A DNA stretch of 64,000 bases from Rhodobacter sp. 24-YEA-8 (lineage in GTDB: Bacteria; Pseudomonadota; Alphaproteobacteria; Rhodobacterales; Rhodobacteraceae): positions 156,086 to 220,085 of the forward strand of contig NZ_FNSK01000006.1 in assembly GCF_900105075.1 (NCBI RefSeq), in the 5' to 3' direction. The position numbers and the translations under genes are program-made. Numbering within the stretch: the stretch's first letter is position 1; each line of letters begins with the position of its first letter. The notes under the pieces are model-generated. The model searched no databases. It was not told the origin of the DNA and saw only the letters and a list, made by a program, of their open reading frames with translations. This document shows positions 22,780-41,536 of this stretch, one piece after another.

Positions 22780-22788
22780 GCTTTTTCC

Positions 22789-24015: not shown

Positions 24016-24284
24016 GGAAGCTCCGATGTTGGGGGGAAGGGCCGGCAACGGGCCGGGTGCTGCGCAAGCAACAGACGGCAACGCAAATGGTGCCTAACGC
24101 CCTGATCAATGTGGTACTTTTGATTTTGAAGCCAGATTTACGGACCCGTTTGTCCTGATCCTGGCTCAATTGAACGGTGCGACGCAGTTGTCGCGGCAGA
24201 AACAGGATTCTGCCTTGTTCGCCGCGCATCCTAGTTATCTTGCTGTCAGCTGTAAAGATACCGACAGAAAATTTCCTCAGCCAG
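24016..24284 (-). promoter_or_regulatory. Leader/promoter region of the amide operon with candidate hairpins
   Basis: About 270 bp without a gene in front of the UrtA-like start. Read on the minus strand it can form several stem-loops: a 7-bp stem GGCAGAA/TTCTGCC with a 6-nt loop (24195-24214), an AGCCAG/CTGGCT stem enclosing GGAC/GTCC with loop AAACGG, and CCGGC/GCCGG close to the start codon. Since an AmiR-like ANTAR protein is encoded in the operon, these are candidate antitermination elements. The minus-strand loops do not show the usual A1/G4 hexaloop pattern cleanly, so this is tentative. Confidence 0.35.
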
Positions 24285-24710: not shown

Positions 24711-24838
24711 AGCCGATCCGGACAGGCAGGCCGTAGTCCCGCAAGATCGCGATGAGCCGCATGAAGTCATCAGCGCTGTTGGCAATCGTCAGGCGCCGGC
24801 GGCGCGTCTTGCCCGGCACCTGAACACCATCTCCTCCC
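24711..24838 (-). mobile_element. IS110-family transposase fragment
   Basis: About 40 residues on the minus strand, TRRRRLTIANSADDFMRLIA followed by ILRDYGLPVRIGF, match the N-terminal RuvC-like region of IS110 transposases (where GFEPT usually follows). The frame breaks right after IGF at the border with the IS5 relic. Too short for subfamily assignment. Confidence 0.55.
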
Positions 24839-24840
24839 GG

Positions 24841-25158
24841 CCGATGCGCTTTGACACGATTTGCGAAGCCAACGCCATCAAGCACCATCTGACGAGGCCC
24901 AAGCATTCCTGGACCAACGGCCAGGTCGAACGGACGAACCGTACCATCAGGAACACCACCGTAAGACGCGTTCATTACGACAGCCATGACCAGATGCGAG
25001 AACATCTGACGGACGTCATGGCGGCCTGCAACTTCGCTCGACCGCTCAAGACCCTCGGAGATCTCACCCCTTACGACTACACCTGCCAGAGTTGGACATC
25101 AGAGCCAGACAGATTCATCCTGAACCCGATCCACCAGATGCCTGGGCGGAACGTCTAG
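24841..25158 (+). mobile_element. IS481-family transposase C-terminal fragment
   Basis: Last about 105 residues of an IS481 transposase: the final catalytic Glu region KHSWTNGQVERTNRTIR, then ACNFARPLKTLGDLTPYDY and the C-terminal TSEPDRFILNPIHQMPG. Everything upstream of the RPMRFDTICE segment is gone. Its TAG stop overlaps the TAG stop of the minus-strand monooxygenase gene (shared CTAG), so the IS end abuts the last codon of the sulfur operon. Confidence 0.85.
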
Positions 25159-26117
25159 AAGAACAGACCGGCGGGCAGCGCCCGGCCATTGACCAGATGA
25201 TCGCCGAGGATGCGGGCCTTGTAGATCGCTGGGTTGTGCACCGAGATTGCGCGCGCATTGCGCCAGTGGCTATCAAGCGCCGCCTCGGCGCGGATGCCGC
25301 GACCGCTCAGCACCTCGAAGATGCGCGCAATCACCGCCTGCGACAGCCGGTCGACGAAGACCTTGGTTTGCACTGCCTCGCGGATGCCATAGACATCGGC
25401 CGAGATCTCACCCAGCACCAGCTGGATCTCGACCTCGTCGGCAGGGCGATCGTTCAGCCCATGGTAGTAATTGCTTTTACGGGCAGACACTTGCGCTGTG
25501 GCCTCCTGCAGCGCGGACGTCGCCACCCCCGCCACCACTGTGGTCAGGTAAAGCTGGGTGAAGGAACTGGCATAGGGCGGCGGCGGCGGTGCCCCCGGCT
25601 GCCGGTCGATGATGTCTTCAGGCCTGATGGCCACATCGACAAACTCGGTCGTGCCCGAGCCAGTGCCACGCTGGCCAAAACCGTCCCAATCGTCGGGAAT
25701 ACTGACACCTGCGCGTGTGACCGGAACCACCAGCTGGACGACATTGTTGCCTTCGTCCGAGGCGGTGACCTGCAGATGGTCGGCATAGAGGTTTCCGGTG
25801 CTGTAATGCGTCACCCCGTCGAGGCGCAGCCCCGCCGCCGTTATCCGCAGCCGGGGGGAATCGCGCCGCCCCTCGCCGCGATGGATGGTCAGGCCAAGGG
25901 CCGGATCGCCCGCTGTCTCTCCCAGCGACCAGCCGAAGATCTCGCCCGCCGCCACCTTCGGCAGCACCTTGCGCGCGAGCGCGCTGCCCGGGCCAAGCCG
26001 CAGCACGGTTTCGACCAGCGCGAAATGGTTGCGGCGGGCGGCACCTGCGCGCAGCTCGTCCAGCACCGGGGCAAGGCCCAGCTCGATGATGATCGCCGAA
26101 AAGGTCTGGCTCGTCAT
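25155..26117 (-). CDS. DszC/SfnB-like flavin-dependent monooxygenase (acyl-CoA dehydrogenase fold), N-terminally shortened
   Basis: Acyl-CoA dehydrogenase-fold protein of 320 residues of the SfnB/DszC group, which use reduced flavin to oxygenate sulfur compounds. Core motifs are GEIFGWSLGET, HYSTGNLYADH, DDWDGFGQRGTGSGTT and the C-terminal HWRNARAISVHNPAIYKAR. The intact relative at 38671-39882 is 403 residues; here about 60-80 N-terminal residues of the first helical domain are missing, and the protein restarts at MTSQTFSAI (26117), 2 bp before the flavin-reductase stop. It may be functional only if that domain is dispensable. Last gene of the operon, next to the IS481 fragment. Confidence 0.75.
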   Translation of the reverse strand: MTSQTFSAIIIELGLAPVLDELRAGAARRNHFALVETVLRLGPGSALARKVLPKVAAGEIFGWSLGETAGDPALGLTIHRGEGRRDSPRLRITAAGLRLDGVTHYSTGNLYADHLQVTASDEGNNVVQLVVPVTRAGVSIPDDWDGFGQRGTGSGTTEFVDVAIRPEDIIDRQPGAPPPPPYASSFTQLYLTTVVAGVATSALQEATAQVSARKSNYYHGLNDRPADEVEIQLVLGEISADVYGIREAVQTKVFVDRLSQAVIARIFEVLSGRGIRAEAALDSHWRNARAISVHNPAIYKARILGDHLVNGRALPAGLFF

Positions 26118-26118
26118 G

Positions 26119-26775
26119 TCAGGTAACCGTCGTTGTGTGGGGGAAAGGGGGAAGCGGCGTGGCGGGATCGCGGGCGCGCAGGTCGAACAGCCGCTCGGTC
26201 GCGATGTAATCGCCGGCATAGCCGCAGCGGGCGACGGGCCGGGTGCGTGACAGGTCATAGATGCCGTCCACGAGATGCTCCTGACGGATATGGATGCGCA
26301 GCACCTGGCCGATCACAATGCGGCTCTCCAGCTCATGGCCGGACAGGTCCCGCAGGCGCTGCGAGTCCACCACCCTGCATTCAAGCGCGACCGGCGCATC
26401 GCGCAGGCGCGGCGCTGCCACCAGGTCGCTGGCCTGTTTGGCCAGCCCAAGCGCCTCGAATTCATCAACCTCCGGCGGATAGGGCCAGGCGCTTTGCGCC
26501 ATCGCAGGTGCCAGCGCGAGCGAGGCGATGTTGCAGACGAATTCGCCGCTGGCGATCGCGTTGCGGAACGTGTCCTTCTCGCCAATGCTGCCGAAGATCA
26601 GGATCGGCGGATCATAAGAGAAGATGTTGAAAAAGCTGTAGGGAGCAAGATTGGCCCGCCCATCCGTCCCAAGCGTCGGGATCCAGCCGACGGGCCGGGG
26701 GGCCACGATCGCGCGCAACGGGTCATGCGGCAGGCCATGGCCCTTGTCCGGGTCATAGCTGTGATAAGGCGACAT
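26119..26775 (-). CDS. Flavin reductase-like FMN-binding split-barrel protein (DszD/FRP role)
   Basis: Flavoprotein of about 218 residues: HDPLRAIVAPRPVGWIPTLG, YSFFNIFSYDPPILIFG and NIASLALAPAMAQSAWPYP are typical of the flavin reductase-like domain. It should supply reduced FMN or FAD to the monooxygenases of this operon. The start MSPYHSYDP at 26775 follows AGGAGG by 7 nt, which decides it over the upstream ATG at 26829; it overlaps the upstream gene by 23 bp. Confidence 0.85.
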   Translation of the reverse strand: MSPYHSYDPDKGHGLPHDPLRAIVAPRPVGWIPTLGTDGRANLAPYSFFNIFSYDPPILIFGSIGEKDTFRNAIASGEFVCNIASLALAPAMAQSAWPYPPEVDEFEALGLAKQASDLVAAPRLRDAPVALECRVVDSQRLRDLSGHELESRIVIGQVLRIHIRQEHLVDGIYDLSRTRPVARCGYAGDYIATERLFDLRARDPATPLPPFPHTTTVT

Positions 26776-28120
26776 CGCTGTCCTCCTGATGGCGGTTCTC
26801 TCGCGGTCCGGGGTCGGCAGGCCCCGCACCAGGCCAGGGCGCGGCGTAGCGGTCGCGCAGGGTTTCGTCCCGGTATGCGGTGCGGAACAATCCGCGTCTC
26901 TGCAGGATCGGAATCACACCATCCACAATTGCGGTCAGTCCCGAAGGATAGACATCGCCTGAGATGTTGAATCCGTCGACGATGCCGCGTTCGAACCAGT
27001 CGGCTATCTGATCCGCCACCTGCTCGGGCGTACCGACCAGCCGTTTATGGGCGGTATATCCTCCGGCGCTGATCTGACGCACCGTCAGCCTGTCCTTGCG
27101 GAGCAGATCCCGCACGCCATGCTCCAGCGGGCTTGCAACGGTTTCAAGCCCATCAAGCAGATGCCCGGGCACTGGCTGGTCCAGGTGCAGCGCCGCCGGA
27201 TCAAGGCCAAGCGCCCTGGCCACGCTGGCGATCCGCGCCGCGGCGAGGATCAGCTCCTCCAGCGCGTTCAGCCGGTCCCAGGCCTCCCTTTCGGTGTCGC
27301 CCAGGGTGATGTGCAGCCCCGGCAGGATCGCGACCGCCCGCTCGGCCCGCCCGGCGGCGCGGCTTCGGTTGCGGATATCGGCATGGAACAGGGTCGCTGC
27401 CTCGAGGCTGTGCTGGCCGGTGAAGATCGGATCGGCATGGGCAGAGGCGAAGGCACGCCCACCCTCGGAAGGACCGGCCTGCACGATCAGCGGCCGCACC
27501 TGGGGCGAGCGCGGCAGTTGCAGCGGCCCAGTCACCGCGAAATGAGGGCCGCGATGGTTGATGGCTCGTATCCGCGTGGTATCGGCAAAGGTGCCGCCCG
27601 CACGGTCGGCCTGCAAGGCTCCCTCGTCCCAGCTTTCCCATAGCGCACCCGCCACCGCCAGAAACTCATGCGCGCGCGCCCAGCGGGTTGCAGAATCCGG
27701 ATGCCGGTCCAGTCCGAAATTCCCCGAGGTATGGGCATGCATCGAGGTCACGACGTTCCAGCCGATCCGCCCGCGCCCGGCGTGATCTAGGCTCGACAGC
27801 GCGCGGGCCAGCGCATAGGGCTGGTGATAGGTGGTCGAGGCGGTGACGATCACCCCGATCCGCGACGTCCGTGCCAGGATCGACGCCGCGACCACCACCG
27901 GGTCAAGGGCAAGGCTGTCCTCGGTCTCCATCGCCTCGCCGATCGCCATGTAATCGGCCAGGAACACCGCATCGAACAGACCCTTTTCGGCCAGAGCCGC
28001 CGCCTGAAGGTAATGGTCAATCTCGACAAAGCCAAAGCGGTGACCGTCCGGTGCGCGCCAGGCAGCGCGATGAAAGCCGGTTGTGTTGAGGTTCAGGTTG
28101 AGATGCATCTGTCTGGACAT
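26753..28120 (-). CDS. NtaA/SnaA/DszA-family FMN-dependent monooxygenase (LLM class)
   Basis: Luciferase-like monooxygenase of 455 residues. The NtaA/DszA subgroup is clear from ALAEKGLFDAVFLADYMAI, STTYHQPYALARALSSLDH, RIGWNVVTSMHAHTSGNFG and PLIVQAGPSEGGRAFAS. Members cleave C-S or C-N bonds with reduced flavin and O2; DszA opens the sulfone ring in the 4S pathway. The C-terminal about 30 residues (PGPRENRHQEDSDVALSQL) look non-conserved. It is followed by a flavin reductase and flanked by DszC-like proteins, so a sulfone or sulfonate substrate is likely. Confidence 0.87.
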   Translation of the reverse strand: MSRQMHLNLNLNTTGFHRAAWRAPDGHRFGFVEIDHYLQAAALAEKGLFDAVFLADYMAIGEAMETEDSLALDPVVVAASILARTSRIGVIVTASTTYHQPYALARALSSLDHAGRGRIGWNVVTSMHAHTSGNFGLDRHPDSATRWARAHEFLAVAGALWESWDEGALQADRAGGTFADTTRIRAINHRGPHFAVTGPLQLPRSPQVRPLIVQAGPSEGGRAFASAHADPIFTGQHSLEAATLFHADIRNRSRAAGRAERAVAILPGLHITLGDTEREAWDRLNALEELILAAARIASVARALGLDPAALHLDQPVPGHLLDGLETVASPLEHGVRDLLRKDRLTVRQISAGGYTAHKRLVGTPEQVADQIADWFERGIVDGFNISGDVYPSGLTAIVDGVIPILQRRGLFRTAYRDETLRDRYAAPWPGAGPADPGPRENRHQEDSDVALSQL

Positions 28121-28139
28121 GGCTGAGCACCGTCAGATT

Positions 28140-29112
28140 GCGAGGGGGGCGGCACGCGCCCGTTCAGCCACCAATCACCGACAAAGGCCTGCCGCCAGCG
28201 CACCGGGTCATGCAGCGAATGGGTGCGGGCTCGCGCCAATAGCGGTCGGCGGCCAGCGCCTCGTCCCCGGACCCCAGCAGAGCGGCCAAAGTCTGACTGC
28301 GCGCCGGGCCATATTCATAGGCGATGGATTTTGCCTCATCGACGGCCAGGGCCGCGGCGGTCTCGTCGACCGGGCTGTCCGCCAGCGCCGCATCCACTGC
28401 CAGATCGAGCGCGCCATCGCCGATGCCGGCCTGCAACGCCGCATGTGCCAGCTGGTTCTGCGCAAACAGCACCGCACCCCCGCAGTGGATCGGGGGTAAA
28501 GCTGCCGTCATCCACCCAGGCAGCAGGCACCACCACATCGCGGAATCGGACCGAGACACTGAAGGTTGAACGTTGCCCCACCACATCCCAGTCGCCGCCA
28601 AATTCCATCCCGGTAATTCCGGCCGGCAGGATCGCGGCGGCATAGGCCCCATCCGCATGTCGCGCCGGAACCAGCGTCCAATGCGAGGTCAGCGCGCCGG
28701 CGCAGAAATGCTTTTCGCCATTCAGCAGGTAATGTCCGCCCTCGGGCACCAGCTGAGTGGCATTGCCCCAGCGGGCACCCGCAAGCGCTTCGGCGGCAAA
28801 AAAGGCGGCCTCGGGCGCGGGCATCTCGCCGATGAACTGGCCCTTGATCAAATCGACATAGTAAAGCTGGGCAAGCGAGGGATCGGCCCCGCCCAACCGG
28901 GCAGGCAGCCGGATCGCCGCCAGACCCGAAGCCGAAAGGTATTGCAGCGCCTGCCAGGGCACCTCGCCCCCCAGGTCACGATCACGGGCACCGGGGACGA
29001 GCCAGGCGGCCACCTCATCGGCGATCCGCAGCGCTTCGACTTCATCCACAATGATGCGGGCGGGTCCGAAAGGGTTGTCAGTCAGTGCTTCGGGTCCGGT
29101 GGCGACAGTCAT
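28140..29112 (-). pseudogene. DszC/SfnB-like monooxygenase gene with two frameshifts
   Basis: Starts with ATGA overlap at 29112 (MTVATGPEALTDNPFGP). It runs intact through LNGEKHFCAGALTSHW, GMEFGGDWDVVGQRSTFSVS and VVPAAWVDDGSFTPDP; the frame is then lost at a G5 run near 28490. The next frame continues GAVLFAQNQLAHAALQAGIG and ADRYWREPA. A second shift near 28230 moves the expected C-terminus ARTHSLHDPVRWRQAFVGDW into another frame. Both shifts are needed to rebuild a full-length protein of about 320 residues. Either it is a pseudogene or two base-call errors are present; the neighbourhood favours decay. Confidence 0.8.
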
Positions 29113-30164
29113 TCCTCGGCGCTCCATATCCAGGCGGGTTGTGCCGGGCGGGCAGCCCATCCGCGCCAATGTCGGTCAAGTTCGCGGTCACGACGCATGG
29201 CGCTCGCCCCGGTCAGCTCGAAAACCTCGTTGAAAAGCCGGCTGCCAAGGCGCGCGACATGGGTCTCGGCTAGGGTCAGAACCGGGGTTGCGGCCCGCAG
29301 GGCGGCATCGTCGGACAGGCCTGCGACCAGGTTCGAGAACAGCTCGTCGGCCGCGCGCAAGCCGACCCACCAGCGACCGAACTCACGCAGAACCAGCGGA
29401 TCCTCGCGCACCGGGCCGGGCCAGGCGTCATACCAGCGGCTGGCACGCAGCCGGATATGGCTGTGCGCTTTCCAGAGGGCCGCCTTCAGCCCGCCAAGCG
29501 CCACTGCCAGAGACAGAAGCCGCGCCAGGGCCACCTGCGCCGCGGCAAACCCCTCCAGCGTCGGCGATTCCGGCCAGAGCGCGCGCACGGCCAGCGCCGC
29601 CTGATCGGCCACTACGATCCGGCCTGGCAGCAGGCGACGCTCGCCAAAAGCCTGCGGATCGAGCTGAAACCCCGTGTCTGGTGTGAAGCCCGCCGCCAGC
29701 CGAGGCGCAGCAAACTGACCGGCCGGGTCCCGGCCCAGCACAATGACCCGCGCGGGCGGCTCGATCAGCGGCGCAGGGCGCAGGCTGTCGGTGACCCGCC
29801 AGACCCCGGATCTGCCGGGCTGCAAGGACACCTGCGGACCGGCGAGTACCGTCGGCCCGAGCGCGGGCTGATCAAACAGGATGGTCCAGGCCCGCGCGCC
29901 TTGCCAGCGATGCGCCGCATCACGGCCGGCGGAGAGGTCCAGCACCGCAAGCCGCAGCACCTGCTGCGCCGCCTCGGCCGGCATCAGGGTTGAAGCGAGC
30001 GGAGGCAGGGCATGGCGCGGGTTCGGATCGCGTCCAACCTCGCGATCCGCATCGCGAAAGCTGTCGAAATCATCGGCGCTCCAGCCGGCCAGCAGCAGTT
30101 CTGCGGCAGCGGTGTCGGCGGCGGCGACCCCGGCGTGGCTTTGGGATCGGTCCAGCATTGTCAT
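29109..30164 (-). CDS. Acyl-CoA dehydrogenase-fold protein, likely partner of the adjacent monooxygenase
   Basis: Intact protein of 351 residues with a divergent acyl-CoA dehydrogenase fold: FDQPALGPTVLAGPQ in the middle domain and the C-terminal helical bundle with FGRWWVGLRAADELFSN, ETHVARLGSRLFNEVFELTG and RELDRHWRGWAARPAQ. FAD-binding motifs are weak and there is no clear catalytic base. It is coupled by 4-bp overlaps on both sides. A plausible role is the second subunit of a two-component oxygenase with the frameshifted gene at 28140-29112; this pairing is inferred from context. Confidence 0.7.
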   Translation of the reverse strand: MTMLDRSQSHAGVAAADTAAAELLLAGWSADDFDSFRDADREVGRDPNPRHALPPLASTLMPAEAAQQVLRLAVLDLSAGRDAAHRWQGARAWTILFDQPALGPTVLAGPQVSLQPGRSGVWRVTDSLRPAPLIEPPARVIVLGRDPAGQFAAPRLAAGFTPDTGFQLDPQAFGERRLLPGRIVVADQAALAVRALWPESPTLEGFAAAQVALARLLSLAVALGGLKAALWKAHSHIRLRASRWYDAWPGPVREDPLVLREFGRWWVGLRAADELFSNLVAGLSDDAALRAATPVLTLAETHVARLGSRLFNEVFELTGASAMRRDRELDRHWRGWAARPAQPAWIWSAEE

Positions 30165-31414
30165 TCCTCAAGCTCTGGCAACAGGGGGTGGCGCGGATCT
30201 GACACTGCGGCTGACAGGCCCTGGCCCGGGATCGCCGCCAGAAGATCACGGGTATGACCCTGCCGGGGACGGTCGAAGACGTTATGGGTCGGGCCTGCTT
30301 CAACCAGCTGGCCCGCGCGCATCACCAGCACCCGGTCCGCAATGCGGCGCACCACCGCCAGATCGTGCGATACAAACAGATAGCCGATGCCATGCCGCGC
30401 CCGCAGCTCGGCCAGCAGCCCGAGCGTGGTTTTTCCCGAACCGGATTCGCCGACCAGCGCCACCGTTTCACCGGCGTGCACCGACAGCGAAATGCCATCC
30501 ACCGCGCGCAACTGCCCCGCGCCCTGGGCGAAATCCTTCACCACCGCTTCGACCTGCAGGATCGGCGCCGCGCCGGCCTGTACAGAGGACGGCACGGTGG
30601 CAGACACCGGCCCGTGTTGTGGCGCGCTGTCGATCAGCAGCCGCGTATAGGCGGCGCGGGGATGGCGCAGCACCTGCGCCACCGGCCCTTGTTCGACACG
30701 ACGCCCGTCCTTCAGCACGATGACCCGGTCCGCCCGATCCGCCGCCACCGCCAGATCATGGGTGACCAGCAGCACCGAGAGTCCCTCGGCCCGGAGCAAT
30801 GCGCCCAGATCATCGAGAATGCGCTTCTGCACCGTTACATCCAGTGCTGTGGTCGGCTCATCCGCCAGAAGCAGCGCAGGCCCAGAGGATAGCGCCGAGG
30901 CGATCAGTACCCGTTGGCGCATGCCGCCCGACAGCGCACCGGGATACTGGCGCACCCGCGCCTCGGGCTGGCCAATGCCGACGCGGGCCAGCAGCTCGAC
31001 GGCGCGGGCAGACAAGGCACGCGGCTCGCGCAGCAGGCCATGGATGCGCAGCGGCTCGACCGTCTGGCGACCGATCCGCTGTAACGGGTTCAGCGTCATG
31101 GTCGGATCCTGCGGGATCTGCGCCACCTTGCGGCCATGCAGGCGGCGGCGCGCCGCCTCGTCCAGATCCGTGACATCCACGCCGTCCAGCAACATGCGCC
31201 TGGCCGAGATCTCCGCCGTCTCGGACAAAAGCCCCAGCAGCGCATGGGCCAGCGTGCTTTTTCCCGACCCGCTTTCGCCGACCAGCGCCACGACCTCGCC
31301 CCGGCCCACCGAGAAGGAAATGTCATGCAGCACCGCCACCAGCCCCTGACGGGTGCGATAGCCAAGCGTCAGGCCGCGGATCTCTGCGGCGGGCGGCAAC
31401 GACGTATCGGTCAT
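30161..31414 (-). CDS. Tandem peptide-type ABC ATPase with an internally deleted second domain
   Basis: Single ORF of 417 residues that should encode two ATPases (DppD-DppF fusion, normally about 540). Domain 1 (residues 1-250) is complete: Walker A GESGSGKS, signature LSGGMRQRV, Walker B LLLADEP, H-loop THD. Domain 2 starts normally (DGISLSVHAGETVALVGESG, then SGKTTLG) but jumps directly to LLAELRARHGIGYLFVSHDL. Roughly 95 residues holding the Q-loop, signature and Walker B are missing in frame. The importer can therefore have at most one competent ATPase unit from this gene. Overlaps both neighbours by 4 bp. Confidence 0.85.
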   Translation of the reverse strand: MTDTSLPPAAEIRGLTLGYRTRQGLVAVLHDISFSVGRGEVVALVGESGSGKSTLAHALLGLLSETAEISARRMLLDGVDVTDLDEAARRRLHGRKVAQIPQDPTMTLNPLQRIGRQTVEPLRIHGLLREPRALSARAVELLARVGIGQPEARVRQYPGALSGGMRQRVLIASALSSGPALLLADEPTTALDVTVQKRILDDLGALLRAEGLSVLLVTHDLAVAADRADRVIVLKDGRRVEQGPVAQVLRHPRAAYTRLLIDSAPQHGPVSATVPSSVQAGAAPILQVEAVVKDFAQGAGQLRAVDGISLSVHAGETVALVGESGSGKTTLGLLAELRARHGIGYLFVSHDLAVVRRIADRVLVMRAGQLVEAGPTHNVFDRPRQGHTRDLLAAIPGQGLSAAVSDPRHPLLPELEE

Positions 31415-32283
31415 TCCGCCCCCCGTTCAGCGATGGAGCCGCGATGGTGTTGAGCGCGATTACGCTGATTGCCACTGCCAGCCCCAGAATGATCGCGACC
31501 CACCAGACCGTGCCGAGGTAGTCGCGCCCCGTGGCGATCAGCAGGCCCCATTCGGGTGCCGGGACGGGCGCGCCAAAACCCAGAAAGCTGAGCGCCGAAA
31601 TCGAAAGGATCGACCAGCCTGCCTCGATCGTGGCCAGAACCGCGATGGGACCGAAGGCATTGGGCAGGAGCTCTATCAGCACCAGACGCCACTGCGCAGA
31701 AAGCGCTGGCCTCGATCCAGTCGGCGGCGCGCCGCCGCAGGATTTCGCCTCGCATCACCCGCGCGAAAGAGGCGACGCTGCCGATGCCCACTGCAATCGC
31801 CAGATTAACCGTGCCGAACCCCAGTACTGCGATGATCGCCAGCGCGATCATCAGCGTCGGCACCGACAGCAGCACATCGACCAGCTGCATGATCGCATCA
31901 TCGGCCAGACCGCCATACCAGCCGGCCACCAGCCCGAGGGTCGAGCCGAGCAGCAGCCCGACCAGCACCGCAATGATCACCGCCTTGACGGTTTCCTGCG
32001 CGCCAAAGACGACACGGGCAAAGAGATCACGGCCGAAATTATCTGTGCCAAACAAATGGTCGCCGACAGGGGGCAACAGGCGGTCGAGTTCGCCGAACAG
32101 CGGGTCATTAACCGTGATCCGGCCGGGGACGAAGGCCGCCAGCAGCAGAAGGGCGGCAATCGCCCAGGACAGCTGCAGGAAGGGCCTGGTCAGCGCCCGG
32201 CGCGCCAGTCCGGTGGCCCTGGTCAGCCCGGGCCGTGCCAAGGAGGCGGGGCTGTCTTGCGAGGTGAAATCGTGATGGGTCAT
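31411..32283 (-). pseudogene. DppC-like permease gene with two compensating frameshifts
   Basis: Start MTHHDFTSQDSPASL at 32283, immediately after the DppB-like remnant. The first two thirds are a normal DppC (FGTDNFGRDLFARVVFG, GLVAGWYGGLADDAIMQLVD, RRRAADWIEAS). Near 31690 the frame shifts and continues as LIELLPNAFGPIAVLATIEA and SFLGFGAPVPAPEWGLLIA. Within a G6 run at about 31433 a second shift would restore a normal end, LNGAE plus TGA overlapping the next ATG as ATGA. As read, no functional full-length permease is made. Confidence 0.82.
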
Positions 32284-32284
32284 C

Positions 32285-34074
32285 TTATGCCTCTTGCCCG
32301 CGCCGCCGCCCCGAAGCCGCCAGATCGACGCGCGGATCAATCAGCGGATAGGCCAGATCCACCAGCAGGTTGATCAGAACAAAGACGCCGGCGGTGAACA
32401 GCACGACGGCCAAGACGACGGGGTGTCCTGATAGCTGACCGCCCGCATGATCACTGCGCCGATGCCAAGCCGTGAGAACACTGTCTCGAGCACCACTGTG
32501 CCGCCGATCAGCGTGCCCGCCGTCACGCCAAGCGCCGTGACAACCGGAAAGACTGAGCCGCGCAGCTCATGGATATAAAGCACGTAACGCCGGCTGCCAC
32601 CCTTGGCGCGGGCCATGGCGATGAACGGCTCGTCCAGCGTGGAGCGCAGACTGGCAACCAAAAGCTGCACCGTGGTTGCCGCCGTCGGCACTGCCAGAAC
32701 CAGCGCGGGCAGCACCAGGCTGCTTGCGCCCCGGTTGCCGCGCGGCGACAGCATCCGCGGCGGCCAGAATTCCGAACTCCAGCGGTGCAGTTCATAGGCC
32801 TTGCTGTTCACCACATTGGCGAAATCCGCACCGGTTCGCGGACGCAGGGTGATCTGGATGCCGATCTGGGCCAGCTGCTGCTGCACCGCCTCGGTGGTCA
32901 CCAGATTGTAGGCATTCTCGCGGAAAGTCAGCTCGATCTCGAGTGACTTGCCGTCCTTCTCACGGATCTTGGCACCTTCTGGCAGGGTCCAGCCAGCGGC
33001 ATCGAGGATCTCACGCGCCTTCGCCTGATCCTGCACCAGAAGATCGCCCAGATCGTTGTAAATCGGCGAGCCCGAGGCCACGAGATTGCGCGCCGGAACA
33101 CCGATCCCGTCGAAAGCGTAATCGATGACCTTCTGCCGGTCGATACCCAGCTGGATCGCCCGGCGCACCGCCGGATCGACCAGATTGCCACGCGTCGTAT
33201 TGGCAAAGAAGCCGACGCTCAGGGCATTCACCGTATCTGTATGGACCGTGAAACCTTCCCGATTGAATGACGGCACATCCTTGGTCGAGGCCTGGAAGAT
33301 CAGATCCACCTGACCCGAGCGCAAGGCACCGCTGCGCACCGTGCCTTCGGGAATGACCGTCCATTCGATTGTCTCGACATGGTCCAGGCCTTTGGGAGCC
33401 CAGTTGTAACCCTCGCGGCGCTTGAAAGTGACTGTGCTGTTAAAGTTGACCGCGCCATCCTGGACGAAGGGGCCGGAGCCTATGATCCCATCGACGCAGC
33501 GCTGTTCGGCAGTTTTCTGCAGCGTCTGCGGGGCCACGATACCAGGTATGCCGCTCCAGCTGCGGAACAGGAAATCGGCACGCGGGTGGTCGAAGGTGAT
33601 CACCACTGTTCTTGCATCGGAGGCCACCGCCTGCGCGATCAGCTTCTCTTCATTGCTGAATGTGACATCGTCACGCAGGGTGAAGTTGAAGACCTGCGCC
33701 GCCTCATCCACCGTCCAGGCGGTGGCAAGCCAGGGCTCTGGCGCACCGCCACTGGCCACCGAGGCAAAGGTCAGCGTGTCGATCAGCTGCCGCCCCGGCC
33801 CGAGCCCGAAGCCGTAGCCATAGATGTCTTGCTGCGGATCGACGCATTCGGGCAGGAGTGCAATCGCTGCGCGCAAGGTGCCGCCTGCCTGAGGTGTTTC
33901 CGCATACAGCAGCGCGGGTGATACGGGGGCCGTAGCCGCCACAAAGGCAAGCACGGCCGACCCGCCGGAACGGCGGGGACTGCGAGAAGTTTCAGCCTGT
34001 AGCTTCGGCCTCGACGATGGCACGCGCCCGGTCGAGCGGGCCATGTGCGACCCAATCGGCGACCTCGAAATCAT
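32285..34074 (-). pseudogene. In-frame fusion of a truncated solute-binding protein to the C-terminal part of a DppB-like permease, then frameshifted
   Basis: The first about 440 residues are a family-5 (peptide/nickel) binding protein: signal-like RRSGGSAVLAFVAATAPVSP, GGTLRAAIALLPECVDPQ, DPAVRRAIQLGIDRQKVIDY. It lacks its C-terminus. Near 32730 the frame passes without a stop into a DppB C-terminal half (LVLPALVLAVPTAATTVQLL, FIAMARAKGGSRRYVLYIHE). A shift at a C4 run near 32430 ends it early; in the other frame it would continue LAVVLFTAGVFVLINLLVDL and DPRVDLAASGRRRGQEA, stopping at 32285. About 200 residues of DppB and 100 of the binding protein are deleted. The apparent ATG at 34074 lies inside the upstream gene, so the true start may also be lost. 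Confidence 0.82.
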
Positions 34075-35050
34075 TGGAGATGATCCCGAATCGCAGCAAC
34101 AGATCCTTCTGGCGCGACAGCCGTTCGATCAGGTCCGGCGCAAGCGATGCTTCCAGCGTCTCGGCGATCTGCGGGTTGAAGGCCAGCGGCACGGTCTCTT
34201 CGGGCATGCCGGTGTCACGACCGATCCTGCGGCGGGCCTCACCTGGGTTTGCCTTTGCCCAGCGGGCGGTGCGGATCACCTGTGCCACATAGTCGTCGAC
34301 CAGATCGGGATGGTCGCGCAGCAACTCGCCTCGTACCGTCAGCACCATTGGATTCGAGCCCTGCACCCGGTCGCTTGCGGGCAGGCTCTCCCGCAGGTCG
34401 AACAATGTGCGGGTACCGAGGAGCCAATGCGCCTCTATATCCCAGGCCGAAATATGGATCGCGTCGACCTCGCCCGCCAGCAGGGCGCGGAATTTCTGCC
34501 CCTTGGCCCGCAGTTGCTTGGCCACATCGAAGGAGGACCCGCTAAGCGAACTGGCCAGCGGTTCGGTGATCGGCACCTCTACGATTTCCACCTCGGAAAG
34601 CGCGGCCCCGATGCTGCGCAGCGCCTGATGGAAAGCCCCAAGATCATCCGCCTTCACATAGTCGATCTTGTCATTAGGACGGGTGGCAATGCCGATGCGG
34701 CGCCCCGCCAGCCCGGCCAGATCGCGGATATCAGAATTCGGACCAACAGCGATCTGGTCAACCCGCTCGACCGGCAGGATGCCCAGTACCCGGACATCCT
34801 CGCCCTCAGAGCGCGCCCACATCAGGGGCACATTGCCGCCCTCACGGAAGCCGTTGCGCTGGCTGTGGTTGTAATTCGTTTCGCGCACTGCCCTGTCGGC
34901 ATGGGTGCGGATGTTGTTCAGCTTCACCGGCCGGTCGGCAAAGGCAGCAGCGAAATCGCCGCGCCCGAGGCCAATGCTGTACCCTGCAGGCACCGGGCAG
35001 ACCGTGTACCAGATATCGACCTGGTGCGTGGATTGCTGGTCTTTCGGCAT
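33992..35050 (-). CDS. DszB/SsuA-fold protein without signal peptide, sulfinate desulfinase-like
   Basis: Intact protein of 352 residues and first gene of the sulfur operon. It has a periplasmic-binding (SsuA-like) fold, but no signal peptide (it begins MPKDQQSTHQVDIWYT). It carries the DszB-type active-site segment VCPVPAGYSIGLGRGDF with a Cys at about residue 18, followed by NHSQRNGFREGGNVPLMWAR, where the Arg before x-Gly-Gly matches the DszB Arg. In DszB the Cys, a His and this Arg catalyse C-S cleavage of a sulfinate. The His is offset by three positions relative to DszB as I remember it. A cytoplasmic desulfinase is the best reading; a transporter binding protein is the alternative. Confidence 0.72.
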   Translation of the reverse strand: MPKDQQSTHQVDIWYTVCPVPAGYSIGLGRGDFAAAFADRPVKLNNIRTHADRAVRETNYNHSQRNGFREGGNVPLMWARSEGEDVRVLGILPVERVDQIAVGPNSDIRDLAGLAGRRIGIATRPNDKIDYVKADDLGAFHQALRSIGAALSEVEIVEVPITEPLASSLSGSSFDVAKQLRAKGQKFRALLAGEVDAIHISAWDIEAHWLLGTRTLFDLRESLPASDRVQGSNPMVLTVRGELLRDHPDLVDDYVAQVIRTARWAKANPGEARRRIGRDTGMPEETVPLAFNPQIAETLEASLAPDLIERLSRQKDLLLRFGIISNDFEVADWVAHGPLDRARAIVEAEATG

Positions 35051-35518: not shown

Positions 35519-35995
35519 TTACCCCGCCAGAAGCGCCGAGATGCCGTAGCCCTCGTCCTCAGTTTCGGGAATCTTGCCATCCGCCACGTCGCGCAGCTGC
35601 GCCAGGCTGCGGGTGTCGAGTACCGAAACGATGGCCTCGCGCACCTCCAGCATCAGAAGCCGCACCGCGCAGCGGTTCTCGTCCGCGCAATCCTGACAGG
35701 GTGCATAGCCGGTGCGGCGCGCACAGGGGATCGGTGCCAGCGGGCCATCGAGCGCGCGGATGAGGTGGCCGACCATGATATCCTCGGCCGGCCGGATCAG
35801 GGCATAGCCGCCGTGACGGCCCTTGCGCGTCATCACGAATCCGGCCACCCGCATATCCGCCAGAATGGCATCCAGAAACTTCTTGGAAATGCCGCAGGTC
35901 TCGGAAATGTCGGATGACTGGGCCACCTCGCCCGGCGCGATACCGGCAAGATGAATCGCGGCCTTGAGGCCGTATTTGCCCTTCATCGTCAACAT
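35519..35995 (-). CDS. Rrf2-family transcriptional regulator with a cysteine cluster
   Basis: Winged-helix regulator of 158 residues starting MLTMKGKYGLKAAIHLAG, the standard Rrf2 N-terminus. The recognition region is CGISKKFLDAILADMRVAGF followed by GRHGGYALIRPAEDI. The C-terminal part holds four cysteines (CARRTGYAPCQDCADENRC), compatible with an Fe-S cluster or thiol sensing. Rrf2 proteins include sulfur-status regulators such as CymR and IscR. It sits in the middle of the sulfur island, 468 bp from the DszB-like start on the same strand, and is intact although neighbours are broken. It probably controls this island and itself. Confidence 0.85.
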   Translation of the reverse strand: MLTMKGKYGLKAAIHLAGIAPGEVAQSSDISETCGISKKFLDAILADMRVAGFVMTRKGRHGGYALIRPAEDIMVGHLIRALDGPLAPIPCARRTGYAPCQDCADENRCAVRLLMLEVREAIVSVLDTRSLAQLRDVADGKIPETEDEGYGISALLAG

Positions 35996-36077: not shown

Positions 36078-36853
36078 TCACCCGGGCGGGTGCCGGCTTG
36101 CGGCCGGATCAGTAAGGTTGGCCCCCCCGTCGACATAAAGCCGGGTGCCATTCACAAAGGCCGCCTCGCCCGACAGCAGATAGGCTACGGCGTCCGCCAC
36201 ATCGCGCGGCCTTCCGGGACCGGGCAACGCCGTGCGCCGACTGCGCGTCAGTTCCTCGGTGACACTGCTCAGGCTGTTCAGCCGGGGCGATTCAATCGGG
36301 CCGGGATCGACCGCATTGCTACGCAACCCCTGCGGCCCGTAGCGACGGCCAAGCCCCTGCACCAGCAGGTCGAGCGCGGCATTGACGCTGGCACCGGGGA
36401 AATGGTTGGGCGGCGGCTCGATCCCGCCACGGCCGCTGATCAGCACAATGGCCCCGACTGCTGCGCAAGGAGCGCAGGCAGGGCCGCCCGAACGGGCCGC
36501 ACCGAGCCAAGCAGCTTGGCCTGGATCACCGTCAGCCAGTCGTCATCGCTCAGGTCGATGAACTCGCCGAAGGTCGATACATTGGTGCTGGTGACCACAG
36601 CATCGATGCGGCCATGCCGCGCGAACAGCGTATCGAAACCCCTGCGGACATCCCCGTCATCGGTGACATCGACCGGCAGCCTGTCCACCGAGAGGCCGGG
36701 AAATTCCGACTTCTCGATGCTGCGTGCCGAGGCCACCACCGTCGCTCCGCGCTGCGCGAGCAGCGTCGCAGTCGCATGGCCAAGCGCCCCGGATGCCCCG
36801 GTCACCCAGATCACCTTGCCCTCAAAATCGCGCCTCGTCGTCACATCCGACAT
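36078..36853 (-). pseudogene. Short-chain dehydrogenase/reductase gene, frameshifted and with an atypical active site
   Basis: The 5' part (start 36853) has the Rossmann motif VTGASGALGHATATLLAQRG and NV-type helix region, ending prematurely after ALPALLAQQSG at a G4 run near 36460. The next frame continues IVLISGRGGIEPPPNHFPGA, then ASVNAALDLLVQGLGRRYG, RSNAVDPGPIESPRL and the SDR C-terminus FVNGTRLYVDGGANL. Rebuilt, it would be about 258 residues. The usual YxxxK is replaced: the Lys aligns with Asn in SVNAAL and the Tyr with a non-Tyr residue, so even the ancestral protein was probably not a classical dehydrogenase. Confidence 0.78.
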
Positions 36854-36893: not shown

Positions 36894-38097
36894 CTAGAAG
36901 AACGCCGCCGAGGGCAGCGGCGTATTGTTGAGGATCAGATCGCCCAGAGCCCGCGCCTTATAGGCCACCGGGTTGTGCGACGAGATCGTGCGGATGTTGC
37001 GCCAATGCCGGTCAAGCCGGGCGCGCTGCGTCGCAGCCGAAGCCCCACCCACATCGAAAAGCCGGGTAGCGGCCTCAAGCGCCAGCCCGTCCACCACCAC
37101 CTTGGCCTTGGCGGCGCGCAACGAGGCCTCGCGGAACAGGCCCGCCTCGGCGCTGGCCTGGGCTTCCGCCAGAGCCTCTGCCGCGCGCAGCACGCTGGCC
37201 TCGGCCACATAGGCCGTACTGGCCAGTCTGCCGATAATTTCCTGCAGCAGCGGATCCTCGGCAGGCCGGGCGGCCACGGCATGGTAATAGTTGCGCCCCC
37301 GGCCCAGCACCAGTTCCGCCGCATCGCGCACCACTGCGCGCAGGATGCCGGCGATGATTGCCGAAAGGTAAAGCTGCGGGAAGGTCGCCTCGACGGGCGC
37401 ACGCCGGTCCTCACCCTCAAGGAAAACAACATCCTGCGCCGCGATCCGCACATTGGTGAAGACCGTGGTGCCGCTGGCGGTCTGCCGCTGACCGATGCCA
37501 TCCCAATCCTCGGCAATCACCACACCCGGGTCGCGCACAGGCACCAAAGCAGTGGCGAACTGCCCGTCGAGGGTCACCGCACTGACCAGAATATGGTCGG
37601 TATAGAGATTGCCGGTGCTGTAGTATTTCTCACCGTTCAGCACAAAACCGTCCCCTTCCGGGGTGAGAGTGGTGTTGAACGAGGGGCCGCCGATGCCATG
37701 GACGCCCAGCTCACTCGCCCCGGTGCCAAGCAGATCGCCGCGCTCAACCAGCTCCAGCCAGCGGCGGTATCGGACTGTATTTTGAGCGCAGCAACCGGTC
37801 GGCGTTGAAGAAATGGTTGCGCAGGATATGGGCGATGTTCGAGTCCGCTTCGGCCAGATCGATCACGAATTCGAACAACTGCGGCAGGCTGGCAGCTGCA
37901 CCCACCGGCTGCGGCAAACGAAAGGTGCCGATGCGCGGCTGGCGCAGAAGGTCGATCGCCTGGCGGGGCGAAGTCTCGCCCCGGTCCCGCGCCTCGGCCC
38001 CAGCGGCGACGGCGGCGACGGCGGCGACCAGCGCGCGCAGCTCCGGCGATCCCGGCAAGGGCACGCCGGCCTGCAGCGGCTTGCATTCAAAGGTCAT
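36894..38097 (-). pseudogene. SfnB/DszC-like monooxygenase gene with one frameshift
   Basis: N-terminal part from 38097 (MTFECKPLQAGVPLPGSPEL) through IDLAEADSNIAHILRNHFFN and RLLRSKYSPIP; the frame then ends at TGA near 37744. In the adjacent frame the protein continues RWLELVERGDLLGTGASELG, LNGEKYYSTGNLYTDH, EDWDGIGQRQTASGTT and ends HWRNIRTISSHNPVAYKAR plus LPSAAFF. One single-base change near 37760 would restore about 400 residues. It is close in sequence to the intact paralogue at 38671-39882 and to the shortened one at 25155-26117. Confidence 0.83.
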
Positions 38098-38285: not shown

Positions 38286-38674
38286 ATGACGGAATATCGG
38301 CAGCTTGGCAGGACGGACCTGCGCATCTCTTCCCTCATGACATGGCGGTGGTCGAACGGATCAGCCACCGCGTCGCGGTGATGTATCTGGGCGAAATCGT
38401 CGAGATCGGACCGCGGGCCGAGATCTTCGCCAATCCGCAGCATCCCTATACCCGCAGGCTTCTGGAAGCCGTGGCGATCCCTGATCCGGCCCGCCGCAGC
38501 CTGCGCCGACCTGTGCTTTCGGGCGAGCCGCGCAGCCCGGTCTTCCCGCCTGGCCACCGCCCGATTGCAGCGCGCTGGCGCGAGGTCTCTCCCGGGCATC
38601 GCGTGCAAATCCATGACGGGCAAAACAGCGATCCGGGGCAGAGCGCCGCATCGGAAAACCAGGGGGCAGCATGA
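38286..38674 (+). pseudogene. Chimeric remnant: aldo/keto reductase start joined to the C-terminus of a DppF-like ATPase
   Basis: ATG 38286 encodes MTEYRQLGRTDLRISSL, the exact style of an aldo/keto reductase N-terminus, then the frame becomes meaningless. From about 38336 another frame gives HDMAVVERISHRVAVMYLGE and ANPQHPYTRRLLEAVAIPDP with the oligopeptide-transporter tail, ending at TGA 38674 and overlapping the next ATG. The junction is around CTCATGACATGG. Everything between the reductase N-terminus and the ATPase H-loop has been deleted, probably several kilobases of an ancestral operon. Confidence 0.8.
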
Positions 38675-39882
38675 CGGCAGCACAGAATTTCAACACCCGG
38701 CCGCGCTGGAGCGAGCCGGCCTTCACTTCTCTGCTGGCACGGATCGCCGAAGAAGCGCCCGCCCGCGACCGGGACCGCGACCTGCCGCATGAGCCGGTTC
38801 TGGCGCTGCGGCGCGCGGGCTTTGGCCTGTTGCGCCTGCCGGTCAGCGCCGGGGGCCTCGGGCTTTCACTGCGCGAGACCCTGTCGCGCGTGATCCGGCT
38901 GGCCGAGGCCGATGCCAATATCGCGCATATCTTCCGCACCCATTATGTCTTTGTCGAAACCTATGCCCGCAGCCCGATCGGGCCGGCGGAGACCCGGCTG
39001 CGCGATGCGATCCTTGGTGGCGCGCTGGTGGGTTTTGGCTCTGGCGAGCTGGGAATGGTGGTCAGAACGCGGGATTTCGCGACCACCGCGACGCCCGATG
39101 GCAGCGGCTTCCGGCTCAGCGGTCAGAAGTTCTACTCAACCGGCACGCTTTATGCCGATCTGGTCATGGTGCGGCTGCGCACCGCCGATGGCGATGAAGG
39201 CGTGGCGGTGTTGCCCACAGACCGGCCCGGCATCCGGCGCATCGATGACTGGGACGGGATGGGTCAGCGTCTGACCGGCAGCGGCACCACCTTGCTCGAC
39301 AATGTCCGGGTCGAGGCGGATGAGATCCTGTTGCACAAGACCCGCCCCGAGGCGGCGCAAGCCTATCCCACGACCATCGCGCAGCTTTATCTGACGGCAG
39401 CGGTGGCCGGTATCCTCGCCGCCATCGCGGCGGATGCCGCCCGCTTGCTGGTGACACGCGGGCGCAGCTTCACCCATGCCTCGGCCGACCTGCCGCGCGA
39501 GGATCCGCTGCTGCTGGCCAGCCTCGGCCAATTGTCGGCGCTGGCCTTCTCGGCCGAGGCGACAGTGCTGGCCGCTGCCGATGCACTGGATAGCGCCACC
39601 GACAGCACGGATGAGGCGGGCCTGCGAGACCGTGCACTTGCCCATGCGGCGGCACTGGCGGCCGCGCAGGCCAAGATTGTCGTGGACGAGGACGCCGCCC
39701 GTGCCGGATCACTGATCTTCGAGGTGGGCGGTGCATCCGCCACGCGCGAAGGGGTGAACCTTGGCCGCCACTGGCGCAACGCCCGCACATTGGCCACCCA
39801 TAACCCCGGCCTCTACAAGGCGCGCGCCATCGGCAGCCATCTGATCGATGGCACGCCGCTGCCGGAAAACGGATTCTTCTGA
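38671..39882 (+). CDS. SfnB/DszC-like flavin-dependent monooxygenase (intact)
   Basis: Full-length acyl-CoA dehydrogenase-fold protein of 403 residues. Visible blocks: RRAGFGLLRLPVSAGGLGLS and RLAEADANIAHIFRTHYVF in the N-terminal domain, GFGSGELGMVVRTRDF, LSGQKFYSTGTLYADLV, DDWDGMGQRLTGSGTTL, and the C-terminal FEVGGASATREGVNLGRHWR and PGLYKARAIG. It lacks the acyl-CoA dehydrogenase catalytic Glu pattern, as expected for reduced-flavin monooxygenases acting on sulfones, sulfoxides or thiophenes. It overlaps the chimeric remnant upstream by 4 bp. The only complete gene among the DszC-like copies here. Confidence 0.86.
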   Translation: MTAAQNFNTRPRWSEPAFTSLLARIAEEAPARDRDRDLPHEPVLALRRAGFGLLRLPVSAGGLGLSLRETLSRVIRLAEADANIAHIFRTHYVFVETYARSPIGPAETRLRDAILGGALVGFGSGELGMVVRTRDFATTATPDGSGFRLSGQKFYSTGTLYADLVMVRLRTADGDEGVAVLPTDRPGIRRIDDWDGMGQRLTGSGTTLLDNVRVEADEILLHKTRPEAAQAYPTTIAQLYLTAAVAGILAAIAADAARLLVTRGRSFTHASADLPREDPLLLASLGQLSALAFSAEATVLAAADALDSATDSTDEAGLRDRALAHAAALAAAQAKIVVDEDAARAGSLIFEVGGASATREGVNLGRHWRNARTLATHNPGLYKARAIGSHLIDGTPLPENGFF

Positions 39883-39909
39883 ACCGACAGGGGGCGACAC
39901 TCCCTGTCG

Positions 39910-40340
39910 CACCGGCTTGCTTCAGCCCAGGCCGCCGTCTGACCCGCCAGCCGCCCGAACAGCAGGCTTCGGCCCAGACCATGCCGGGAAAGCCACCCTG
40001 GCTTTCACCCGCGCAGTAAAGCCCCGGGATCGGCTGCTGGTCGAGGCCGATCACCCGTCCCCTGGTATCGGTGCGCAACCCTGACAGGCTGTCATGGATG
40101 ATCGGTGTCGCCCAGGCGGTATGGAACGGCCCGCGCGCGATGGCATGGCGCAGGTCGGGGCGGTGGAAATCCGCGTCCTGGCCGGCTGCGACAAAGCCAT
40201 TGTAATGCGCCACTGTCGCAGCGAGCCGCGCCCCGTGGACTGGCCACCGGTCGCGCGGGGTCGTTCGATTGTGGCTGGTGTCGTCGGCGGTCTGCTCGGG
40301 CGTCCCCAAGATTTGGCGCGCCGCCCGGCCCGGGCCCGCG
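39910..40340 (-). pseudogene. C-terminal remnant of an FAD-dependent oxidoreductase (fumarate reductase/FCSD-like)
   Basis: The frame contains LAATVAHYNGFVAAGQDADF, SLSGLRTDTRGRVIGLDQQP and IPGLYCAGESQGGFPGMVWA, the FAD-binding C-terminal signature of the FAD_binding_2 group. Near 39965 the frame is lost after VWAEA; the next frame reads LLFGRLAGQTAAWAEA, the expected end. Upstream of about 40310 homology stops, so the N-terminal 80-90 percent of the gene is absent. It is convergent with the intact monooxygenase gene. Confidence 0.7.
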
Positions 40341-40399: not shown

Positions 40400-41536
40400 C
40401 TACGCGGCACAAGCACGCACTCCCAACGCCATGGATATAGCCTGTCGCGCTGAATTTTCGGCAACAATGGCGTCGAACGCCGGGTTATAGGCCCTGGTGA
40501 CATCGCGCTGGTGTTTCAGCGTGCCGTTCTTGACCGCAAGATCGACGATACGCTGTTTCTTGGCGATGAACGCGGGATTGCCGACCGGATAGAGCCGCAT
40601 CACCGCATAATTGGCATAATTGATCGCCGCGACCCGGGGCCTCTGCTTGTTCATTGTCTGCTGGATCTGCAGATAGGCTGCCTCATGCGCGGGCACCCAT
40701 TCGGCGTGGAACTTCTTCAGCCGGGCATAGAAATCCTGCAGGGCCGCCAGCTTGCCCGGATCGGCCAGCACATCCGGGCGCGAGATGAAACCATGTCCCC
40801 CCGGCACGCCCAGATCGGTGTAGCTGGCGATCAGCTTGACCTCCCCGCTGTCGACCAGATCCTGGACGAAATTCGCGCCGGTCACCGCAACCTCGACATT
40901 GCCGTCCTTGAAAGCCTGAGCCACCAGTGGATTGCTTTCAAACAGGATCGGCTGGACCTCGGCCTCAGTTACCCCGGCCCCGGCCAGCGCCGAAACATAG
41001 GCGGAATAGATATTGCCGCCGAAATTGTAACCCACGGTATGGCCTTTCAGATCGGCGAGCGAGGTCACCCCCGACGAAGTCCAGGCATAGACCCCGTTGG
41101 GAAAGGGTTGTTGGTCGCTGGTCGCACCGGCGATGTTGTAGATCGCCGGGACCGCGCCCTCGGCCGACCAGTCGGTATAGGCATTGGCCCATTCAAAGCC
41201 TGCGGTGTTGTCGCCGACATGACCCACGTCGAGATTATGGGCATAAAGGGCGGCGATCTGTGCTTGCGGCCCCGAGATAATCGGGATGTCCAGCTTGTAG
41301 TCGATGTCGTCGAACAGGCCGGATTCCTTCAGAAGATAGGGATATTCCGGGGTCTGGTAGCCGTGGATGATGCTGACGGCGGCATCTGCATTCTTCGGAT
41401 TGTCGAAGCTGACCTGCGCCGTCAGATCGGTCTTCAGCCCCTCGGCAAGGCCTGCGGTCGCAAACAGCGCCGAAGCCAGAAAGGTTGCCGAAAGGGCAGA
41501 GACGCGCAGGGGGCGGGGAACAAGAGGAAGGGTCAT
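40400..41536 (-). CDS. Sulfonate/taurine-type ABC transporter substrate-binding protein (SsuA/TauA-like)
   Basis: Exported binding protein of 378 residues. Signal peptide VSALSATFLASALFATAGLA-EG, then the NMT1/SsuA-like body: SIIHGYQTPEYPYLLKESGL, VGHVGDNTAGFEW, DLKGHTVGYNFGGNIYSAYV, FISRPDVLADPGK. It is the third gene of an ssuC-ssuB-ssuA order, 56 bp after ssuB-like. The last residues (ALGVRACAA) look foreign, and the stop lies close to the flavoprotein remnant, so the C-terminus may be slightly altered. Its ligand is probably a sulfonate or sulfone. Confidence 0.82.
   Translation of the reverse strand: MTLPLVPRPLRVSALSATFLASALFATAGLAEGLKTDLTAQVSFDNPKNADAAVSIIHGYQTPEYPYLLKESGLFDDIDYKLDIPIISGPQAQIAALYAHNLDVGHVGDNTAGFEWANAYTDWSAEGAVPAIYNIAGATSDQQPFPNGVYAWTSSGVTSLADLKGHTVGYNFGGNIYSAYVSALAGAGVTEAEVQPILFESNPLVAQAFKDGNVEVAVTGANFVQDLVDSGEVKLIASYTDLGVPGGHGFISRPDVLADPGKLAALQDFYARLKKFHAEWVPAHEAAYLQIQQTMNKQRPRVAAINYANYAVMRLYPVGNPAFIAKKQRIVDLAVKNGTLKHQRDVTRAYNPAFDAIVAENSARQAISMALGVRACAA

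Follow-up and report, generated by a model that had tools for sequence, protein, structure and literature searches.

The DNA considered here is a stretch of 64,000 nucleotides from contig NZ_FNSK01000006.1 of Rhodobacter sp. 24-YEA-8, called the window below, and our subject is a ten-gene operon in it that runs on the minus strand from position 35050 to 25155. The operon encodes, in this order, a homologue of the sulfinate desulfinase DszB, a family-5 binding protein, the permeases DppB and DppC, a DppD-DppF ATPase, two proteins of the acyl-CoA dehydrogenase (ACAD) fold, a luciferase-like monooxygenase (LLM) of the NtaA/DszA class, a Flavin_Reduct protein and a further DszC/SfnB-like protein. 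These gene kinds and their order had been listed in an earlier note and are borne out by profile matches far beyond chance (e.g., E 5.7e-136 for the LLM and E 1.7e-53 for SBP_bac_5). The 4-bp overlaps mentioned in the same note are present, as ATGA overlaps of open frames, at three junctions: between the DppC open reading frame (ORF) 31411-32340 and DppDF, between DppDF and ACAD1, and between ACAD1 and ACAD2. The description of the operon as a complete analogue of the Dsz pathway does not hold, since six of the ten genes are broken. The operon consists of the following features.

33992..35050, minus strand: DszB-like sulfinate desulfinase homologue, 352 aa; full frame with a 6-residue deletion, His60-equivalent replaced by Asn59
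32374..34074, minus strand: remnant of a family-5 (peptide-type) binding protein that has lost its C-terminus and continues in frame into the later half of DppB
31323..32340, minus strand: DppC-type permease with a frame change near 31695 (ORFs 31411-32340 and 31323-31682)
30161..31414, minus strand: fused DppD-DppF ATPase with an intact D half; about 130 middle residues are missing from the F half
29109..30164, minus strand: ACAD1, a divergent ACAD-fold protein of 351 aa; C-terminal domain conserved, homologues P0148 and P0149
28164..29169, minus strand: ACAD2, DszC/SfnB-like; broken, DWDVVGQRST kept
26753..28120, minus strand: LLM flavin monooxygenase of the NtaA/DmoA family (TIGR03860), whole
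26119..26829, minus strand: flavin reductase (PF01613), open frame
25155..26258, minus strand: ACAD3, DszC/SfnB-like; lacks an internal piece and the greater part of its N-terminal domain

Lesions were judged against whole homologues and family profiles. Broken in this sense are the binding protein, DppB, DppC, the DppF half, ACAD2 and ACAD3; the frames of the DszB-like protein, ACAD1, the LLM monooxygenase, the flavin reductase and the Rrf2-type regulator upstream are whole. The importer is present in the form of homologous pieces (SBP_bac_5, two BPD_transp_1 permeases, an ABC ATPase with oligo_HPY), and the Dpp subunits of the window are not all whole: the binding protein lacks its final 105-140 residues or so, and DppB lacks about its first half (the profile match begins at position 158 of 300) and has a frame change near 32425. 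In ACAD2 the homology stops near 28510, and its C-terminal domain was not recognised in any frame. ACAD3 matches its relatives from their residues 96-122 onwards and has also lost 20-30 residues from its interior. An alignment also shows that six residues present in the nearest kin of the DszB-like protein are missing from it.

The host genome (7 contigs, 5.0 Mb) offers a control for these breaks. Elsewhere in it there are four SfnB genes above the curated cut-off, all on contig C2 and open at full length or nearly so, and nine other LLM genes with full-length or nearly full-length open matches; the breaks in the operon are therefore not a general sequencing error. At E 1e-20, the whole genome holds ten SfnB-type matches, three of them in the window, and ten LLM matches, one of them in the window. 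To judge from these sequences, the host has further genes for SfnB and LLM chemistry outside the operon. On C2, SfnB genes above the cut-off are clustered with NtaA/DmoA-family LLM genes at 388107-391801 and 237403-248218, and these clusters are probably the genome's working sulfone or sulfonate genes.

The DszB-like protein and the monooxygenases

DszB is singled out in the excerpt of PMC6100217 as a cofactor-free desulfinating enzyme known from fuel desulfurisation. It is the sole solved sequence relative of the window protein at E 0.01 and, by structure comparison, its nearest fold by a margin, at 22% identity. In a tree that took in 72 of 134 aligned rows, the window protein stands apart from four binding proteins, and its score to the SsuA-type profile TIGR01728 (67.7 bits) falls short of the cut-off of 163.5. 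The alignment comprised 130 family rows (the window protein, 25 P proteins, 102 locus ORFs above 150 bits, one Mycobacterium DszB and one Paracoccus relative) and 4 outgroups, with the duplicates L001 and L088-L091 and weaker ORFs left out. The equivalent of DszB Cys27 is Cys in 127 of the 130 family rows and C18 in the window protein, and at the Arg70-equivalent, Arg, Gly and Gly occur in all 130 (R69-E-G-G in the window), both counts being biased because the patterns of the locus scan held the active-site Cys and Arg. The His60-equivalent is His in 126 of the 130. None of the three equivalents is present in E. coli SsuA or TauA. An ordinary SsuA-type binding protein was rejected on profile score, active-site residues, fold and tree; the placement among transporter binding proteins that the earlier note named as a possible refutation was not borne out.

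The window protein itself departs from its family at the His60-equivalent, where it has N59. As the H60Q variant of DszB retains some activity, being about 17-fold less active according to the excerpt of PMC6100217, this change would lower activity rather than exclude it. Among columns invariant in 16 relatives (16 of 25 homologues were used), the window protein departs at 5 of 70, which is the second highest count of 17 and not the first. Paralogues without the active-site Cys and His occur in two other loci (L081 near 1828 and L029 near 19156); they group in one clade, perhaps as enzyme-derived binding proteins or sensors.

A comparison with solved structures, which covered ACAD2, ACAD3, ACAD5 (an ACAD gene beyond the operon) and the ACAD1 homologue P0148, placed these four nearest to DszC/TdsC/MsuC; for ACAD5 the single nearest entry, by a very small margin, is the probable monooxygenase 8cda. 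All five ACADs of the window, some of which are fragments, score under the SfnB/DszC curated cut-off, the best being ACAD5 with 252.6 bits against 430.9 for SfnB. The DszC-like label of the earlier note is thus upheld by the solved relatives and not by the curated profile.

ACAD1 is divergent and unusual. Among about 5.8 billion proteins, of which the 7998 that had the most words in common with it were scored, a search turned up two homologues, P0148 and P0149. Between ACAD1 and P0148, the C-terminal domain is identical at 83 of 144 columns and the three preceding stretches at 15/46, 20/47 and 27/90; in P0149 the middle domain is almost absent from the alignment. The motif W-D-x-x-G-Q-R-x-T, present in the other four ACADs of the window, is absent from ACAD1, P0148 and P0149. 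Since a loose form of it is found in only 52 of 113 ACAD ORFs of the fetched loci, absence of the motif alone is weak evidence. ACAD1 may be a flavin-less partner subunit. Structure prediction from three sequences gave a mean predicted local distance difference test (pLDDT) score of 51.4 and no usable model, and neither PADLOC-DB nor a plasmid protein search contained a match to ACAD1.

The LLM monooxygenase scores 453.7 bits to TIGR03860, above the cut-off of 279.7. In profile comparison with solved members, it is nearest to YtnJ/MoxC (419 bits), ahead of the nitrilotriacetate enzyme (378) and DszA (376), and DszA proper was rejected as its identity on these scores; the "DszA-family monooxygenase" of the earlier note stands as membership of TIGR03860 and not as DszA in the narrow sense. 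Its constraint is normal, with one departure in 77 invariant columns (32 of 120 listed LLM entries used). The nearest solved relative of the flavin reductase is component B of nitrilotriacetate monooxygenase.

Relatives and their gene neighbourhoods

A scan of genome contigs yielded 377 confirmed stretches encoding DszB-like relatives, of which 80 were kept, chosen by DszB-likeness alone. These loci are not independent, being rich in Rhizobium and Agrobacterium, and some come from one contig or genome or are incomplete. Within the stretch fetched for each locus, DppB and DppC occur together in 63 of the 80, a family-5 binding protein in 58 of those 63 and an aldo/keto reductase in 61; DppBC, an ACAD and an LLM are found together in 53 of the 80. 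The background is 183 DppB matches in 74.5 Mb, or about 0.05 per 21 kb, in 12 genomes hand-picked among the loci with an importer; in 11 of them the DszB-like locus contains the best DppB match of the genome, and in the Pseudomonas locus L076 it contains the second best. With 63 of 80 set against about 0.05 expected, the link between Dpp and DszB-like genes goes beyond chance, chiefly in Rhizobiales. A similar plan is apparently whole in many soil and root-nodule bacteria, and the ten-gene set itself was not found intact among the readable loci.

The 20008-base longest contig listed for each of P0002 (DszB-like, 71%), P0029 (LLM, 73%) and P0148 (ACAD1, 41%) has the same source, and these three seem to lie on one metagenome contig as a less decayed version of the operon, to judge from equal contig sizes only. 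Two further pairs of a DszB-like protein and an LLM have both members on contigs of 107176 and 29729 bases, respectively. The DszB-like gene is rare among relatives of the host: it occurs in 4 of 145 other genomes (E 1e-10), in 3 of 393 others of the family (E 1e-30) and in 1 of 384 others of the class (E 1e-50). Four such relatives were read at 20 kb, and a Dpp permease was found in none of them; one (G011) has SsuB/SsuC-type genes adjacent, two have weaker ATPase or permease matches 6-9 kb off and one has nothing.

A cluster on the plasmid pSymA of Sinorhizobium meliloti combines two DszB-like genes with ACADs and an NtaA/DmoA LLM, with DppBCDF and a family-5 binding protein, and with a sulfite-oxidase gene.

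pSymA 1169459-1187319 (strain 1021): DszB-like cluster
1185928-1187319 of the 1021 plasmid: sulfite-oxidase gene, holding the fragment that PMC3687685 (excerpt) assigns to SMa2103
L113 13417-14645, i.e., pSymA 1179416-1180644: ACAD gene of 1021 in two frames

In the excerpt of PMC3511301, SMa2103 is one of the additional sulfite-oxidising enzymes of S. meliloti and is up-regulated with taurine (data not shown in that paper). The sulfite oxidase beside the cluster supports sulfite release nearby and says nothing on the substrate. Between the two DszB-like genes, strain M162 has a single annotated ACAD CDS, whereas the same gene in 1021 is split over two frames, with the change near residue 114. 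The neighbourhood search revealed no known pathway for non-sulfur compounds, an outcome in line with the earlier note.

Flanking genes and the probable plasmid

The contig (220,085 bases) ends with the window. RepA-, RepB- and RepC-type genes lie at 44657-48245, and the contig carrying the operon is therefore probably a plasmid. A plasmid DNA search with the island returned short pieces only and no near relative. Beyond the operon, up to about 43.3 kb, there is a second damaged set of sulfur type with ACAD4, ACAD5 and SsuA-, SsuB- and SsuC-type genes or pieces.

24835..25152, plus strand: IS481-type transposase fragment at the operon 3' end
35519..35995, minus strand: Rrf2-type regulator, whole, just upstream of the operon
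36078..36853, minus strand: short-chain dehydrogenase split into two frames
36894..38097, minus strand: ACAD4, DszC/SfnB-like, with a frame change near 37770
38671..39882, plus strand: ACAD5, DszC/MsuC/SfnB-like, 403 aa, whole frame
40400..41536, minus strand: SsuA-type binding protein of a damaged Ssu-type importer
41722-41961 and 42349-42906: Ssu-type importer pieces, an ATPase fragment and a permease, respectively

The transposase fragment is 79.5% identical to one annotated IS481 transposase (Sagittula) across 318 bases, other matching records being unannotated there. For another ATPase fragment, at 38.3 kb, the matches in Paracoccus and Rahnella sit in operons with gamma-glutamyltransferase or nucleoside hydrolases. 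A remnant on the minus strand at 39470-40354 holds the C-terminal part of a FAD_binding_2 domain. At 42349-43280, the SsuC-type permease ORF (42349-42906) overlaps an ORF in another frame (42789-43280), and the tandem peptide repeat VIGHWSL is found in both at the join. An SRAP peptidase and an impB/mucB-family (IMS) polymerase, which we take to be ImuA/ImuB, adjoin the repABC-type genes at 48328-51011, perhaps as a plasmid mutagenesis cassette; 49007-49609 is without a Pfam match. On the other side of the operon, a Periplasmic_BP_6 binding protein and a BPD_transp_2 permease at 21910-24081 belong to an importer of urea or branched-chain amino acid type that is apparently whole.

Interpretation and comparison with known systems

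Judged by its sequence, the region is best read as the decaying remnant of a plasmid-borne sulfur-scavenging operon that would once have imported and desulfurised a small organosulfur compound, and we put the probability of this at about two in three. In its working form, the family-5 binding protein and DppBCDF would have taken up the compound, the DszC/SfnB-type monooxygenases ACAD2 and ACAD3 and the NtaA/DszA-type LLM, fed by the flavin reductase, would have oxidised its sulfur and cut one C-S bond to give a sulfinate, and the cytoplasmic DszB-like enzyme would then have freed sulfite. The Rrf2-type regulator probably controlled the operon, and the full pathway would by now be lost from this genome. 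The observations of the earlier note are thus partly confirmed and its interpretation is partly supported.

Several findings weigh against this reading. Our confidence is slightly lowered because no sulfite oxidase turned up in any of the 80 loci, nor did a flavin reductase like that of the window in any locus searched. The aldo/keto reductase that accompanies most DppBC loci is absent from the ten genes. Within the DszB-like clade to which the window protein belongs, six loci could be read (L008-L012 and L019, three of them incomplete), and the importer genes nearby are of the Ssu or Tct type or absent, the Tct-type label being our presumption from N-terminal sequence; Dpp-kind ATPase matches there are weak (77 and 85 bits), so that for this clade the Dpp link comes from the window alone. 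An LLM scoring about 350 bits does lie near the DszB-like gene in two of these loci, L008 and L010. The Dpp parts of the window are only distantly like the rhizobial ones, and the rhizobial ACAD next to DszB1 matches other acyl-CoA dehydrogenases at least as well as it does SfnB/DszC. Some of the operon may also still be functional, given the normal constraint of the LLM and a departure count of the DszB-like protein that is not the highest.

This last point leads to a rather improbable alternative, in which the LLM and the flavin reductase, perhaps together with ACAD1 or the DszB-like protein, keep up a reduced sulfur scavenging through importers elsewhere in the genome. The whole frames, the near-complete set of invariant LLM columns (76 of 77) and the SfnB-type and LLM matches throughout the genome are consistent with it, but the operon partners are broken, and recent decay could spare some genes by chance. 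It is unlikely that the DszB-like family consists of binding proteins or sensors instead of enzymes. Its fold class is common to SsuA and NMT1, its Pfam label is NMT1 and database records title the relatives "ABC transporter substrate-binding protein"; against this stand the margin by which DszB is the nearest fold, the active-site residues shared by 126-130 of 130 rows (with the bias noted above for Cys and Arg), the lack of a visible hydrophobic leader in the translation of the window protein when read by eye, and the separate binding proteins that occur beside DszB-like genes in the same loci. We consider it decidedly unlikely that the substrate was sulfur-free, of a chelator or amine type, and that the LLM and the flavin reductase acted as an NtaA/NtaB-like pair: the reductase is nearest to the nitrilotriacetate component, the LLM is as near the nitrilotriacetate enzyme as it is to DszA and the importer is of the Dpp type, but the DszB-like and DszC-type partners and the sulfite oxidase beside the Sinorhizobium cluster speak for sulfur. 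A complete, working Dsz-like operon with its own importer in this organism is highly improbable and was rejected on the lesions and the lost His60-equivalent, although every gene kind, the operon order and the ATGA overlaps are there.

A broader view of the remnant is tentative, and we think it possible, though doubtful. The window may preserve a fossil member of a class of operons, so far undescribed, that couple a sulfinate desulfinase to an importer. In this class hundreds of DszB-like enzymes, usually labelled as transporter binding proteins if annotated at all and many with a dedicated Dpp-, Ssu- or Tct-type importer, would mine natural sulfones, thioethers or sulfinates in soil- and plant-associated bacteria; here it would have had, in addition, a two-protein DszC-type oxygenase, the flavin-less ACAD1 supporting a catalytic ACAD2. 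A wide DszB-like family with the same active-site positions, often near a dedicated importer and in one case next to a known sulfite oxidase, suggests a role in ordinary soil sulfur nutrition, and DszB-type chemistry becomes testable in a model symbiont. The family is also a warning that the label "substrate-binding protein" may hide an enzyme. What follows for the window itself is more modest: the operon is decaying.

The earlier note knew of no described system with this gene set, and in the open-licence PMC literature we found no description of a Dpp-type importer coupled to a DszB-like enzyme; the statement holds less well for importers at large, as the bdsABC operon discussed below adjoins ABC genes of the sulfonate type. 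The 4S pathway (dszABC, Rhodococcus) shares with the window the DszB fold and active-site plan, a DszC-type oxygenase, an LLM of the NtaA/DszA class and the flavin reductase logic. The window differs from it in having an importer in the operon, several ACAD-fold proteins, only 22% identity to DszB, an LLM that is not nearest to DszA, and broken genes. In the SfnG/MsuC/SsuD pathway of Pseudomonas and Acinetobacter (excerpt of PMC13352529), two-component monooxygenases of the ACAD fold (MsuC) and of the LLM kind also lead to sulfite, but without a desulfinase: the sulfinate is oxidised to a sulfonate, which SsuD cleaves. The Sinorhizobium cluster resembles the window in its DszB-like, DppBCDF, family-5, ACAD-fold and NtaA/DmoA-family LLM genes, and differs in its divergent operons, two DszB-like genes, aldo/keto reductase, sulfite oxidase and separate DppD and DppF; its importer is not close kin of the window's. 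According to the excerpt of PMC3868597, bdsABC of Gordonia terrae C-6, which acts on benzothiophene, likewise unites desulfinase, DszC-like and SsuD-like genes in one operon. There, however, the co-induced importer genes adjacent by locus tag are of the sulfonate/taurine kind, and peptide-type ABC sets, induced too, have distant locus tags. The plan of the window operon is a variant of this known Dsz/Bds kind, and it recurs in many species.

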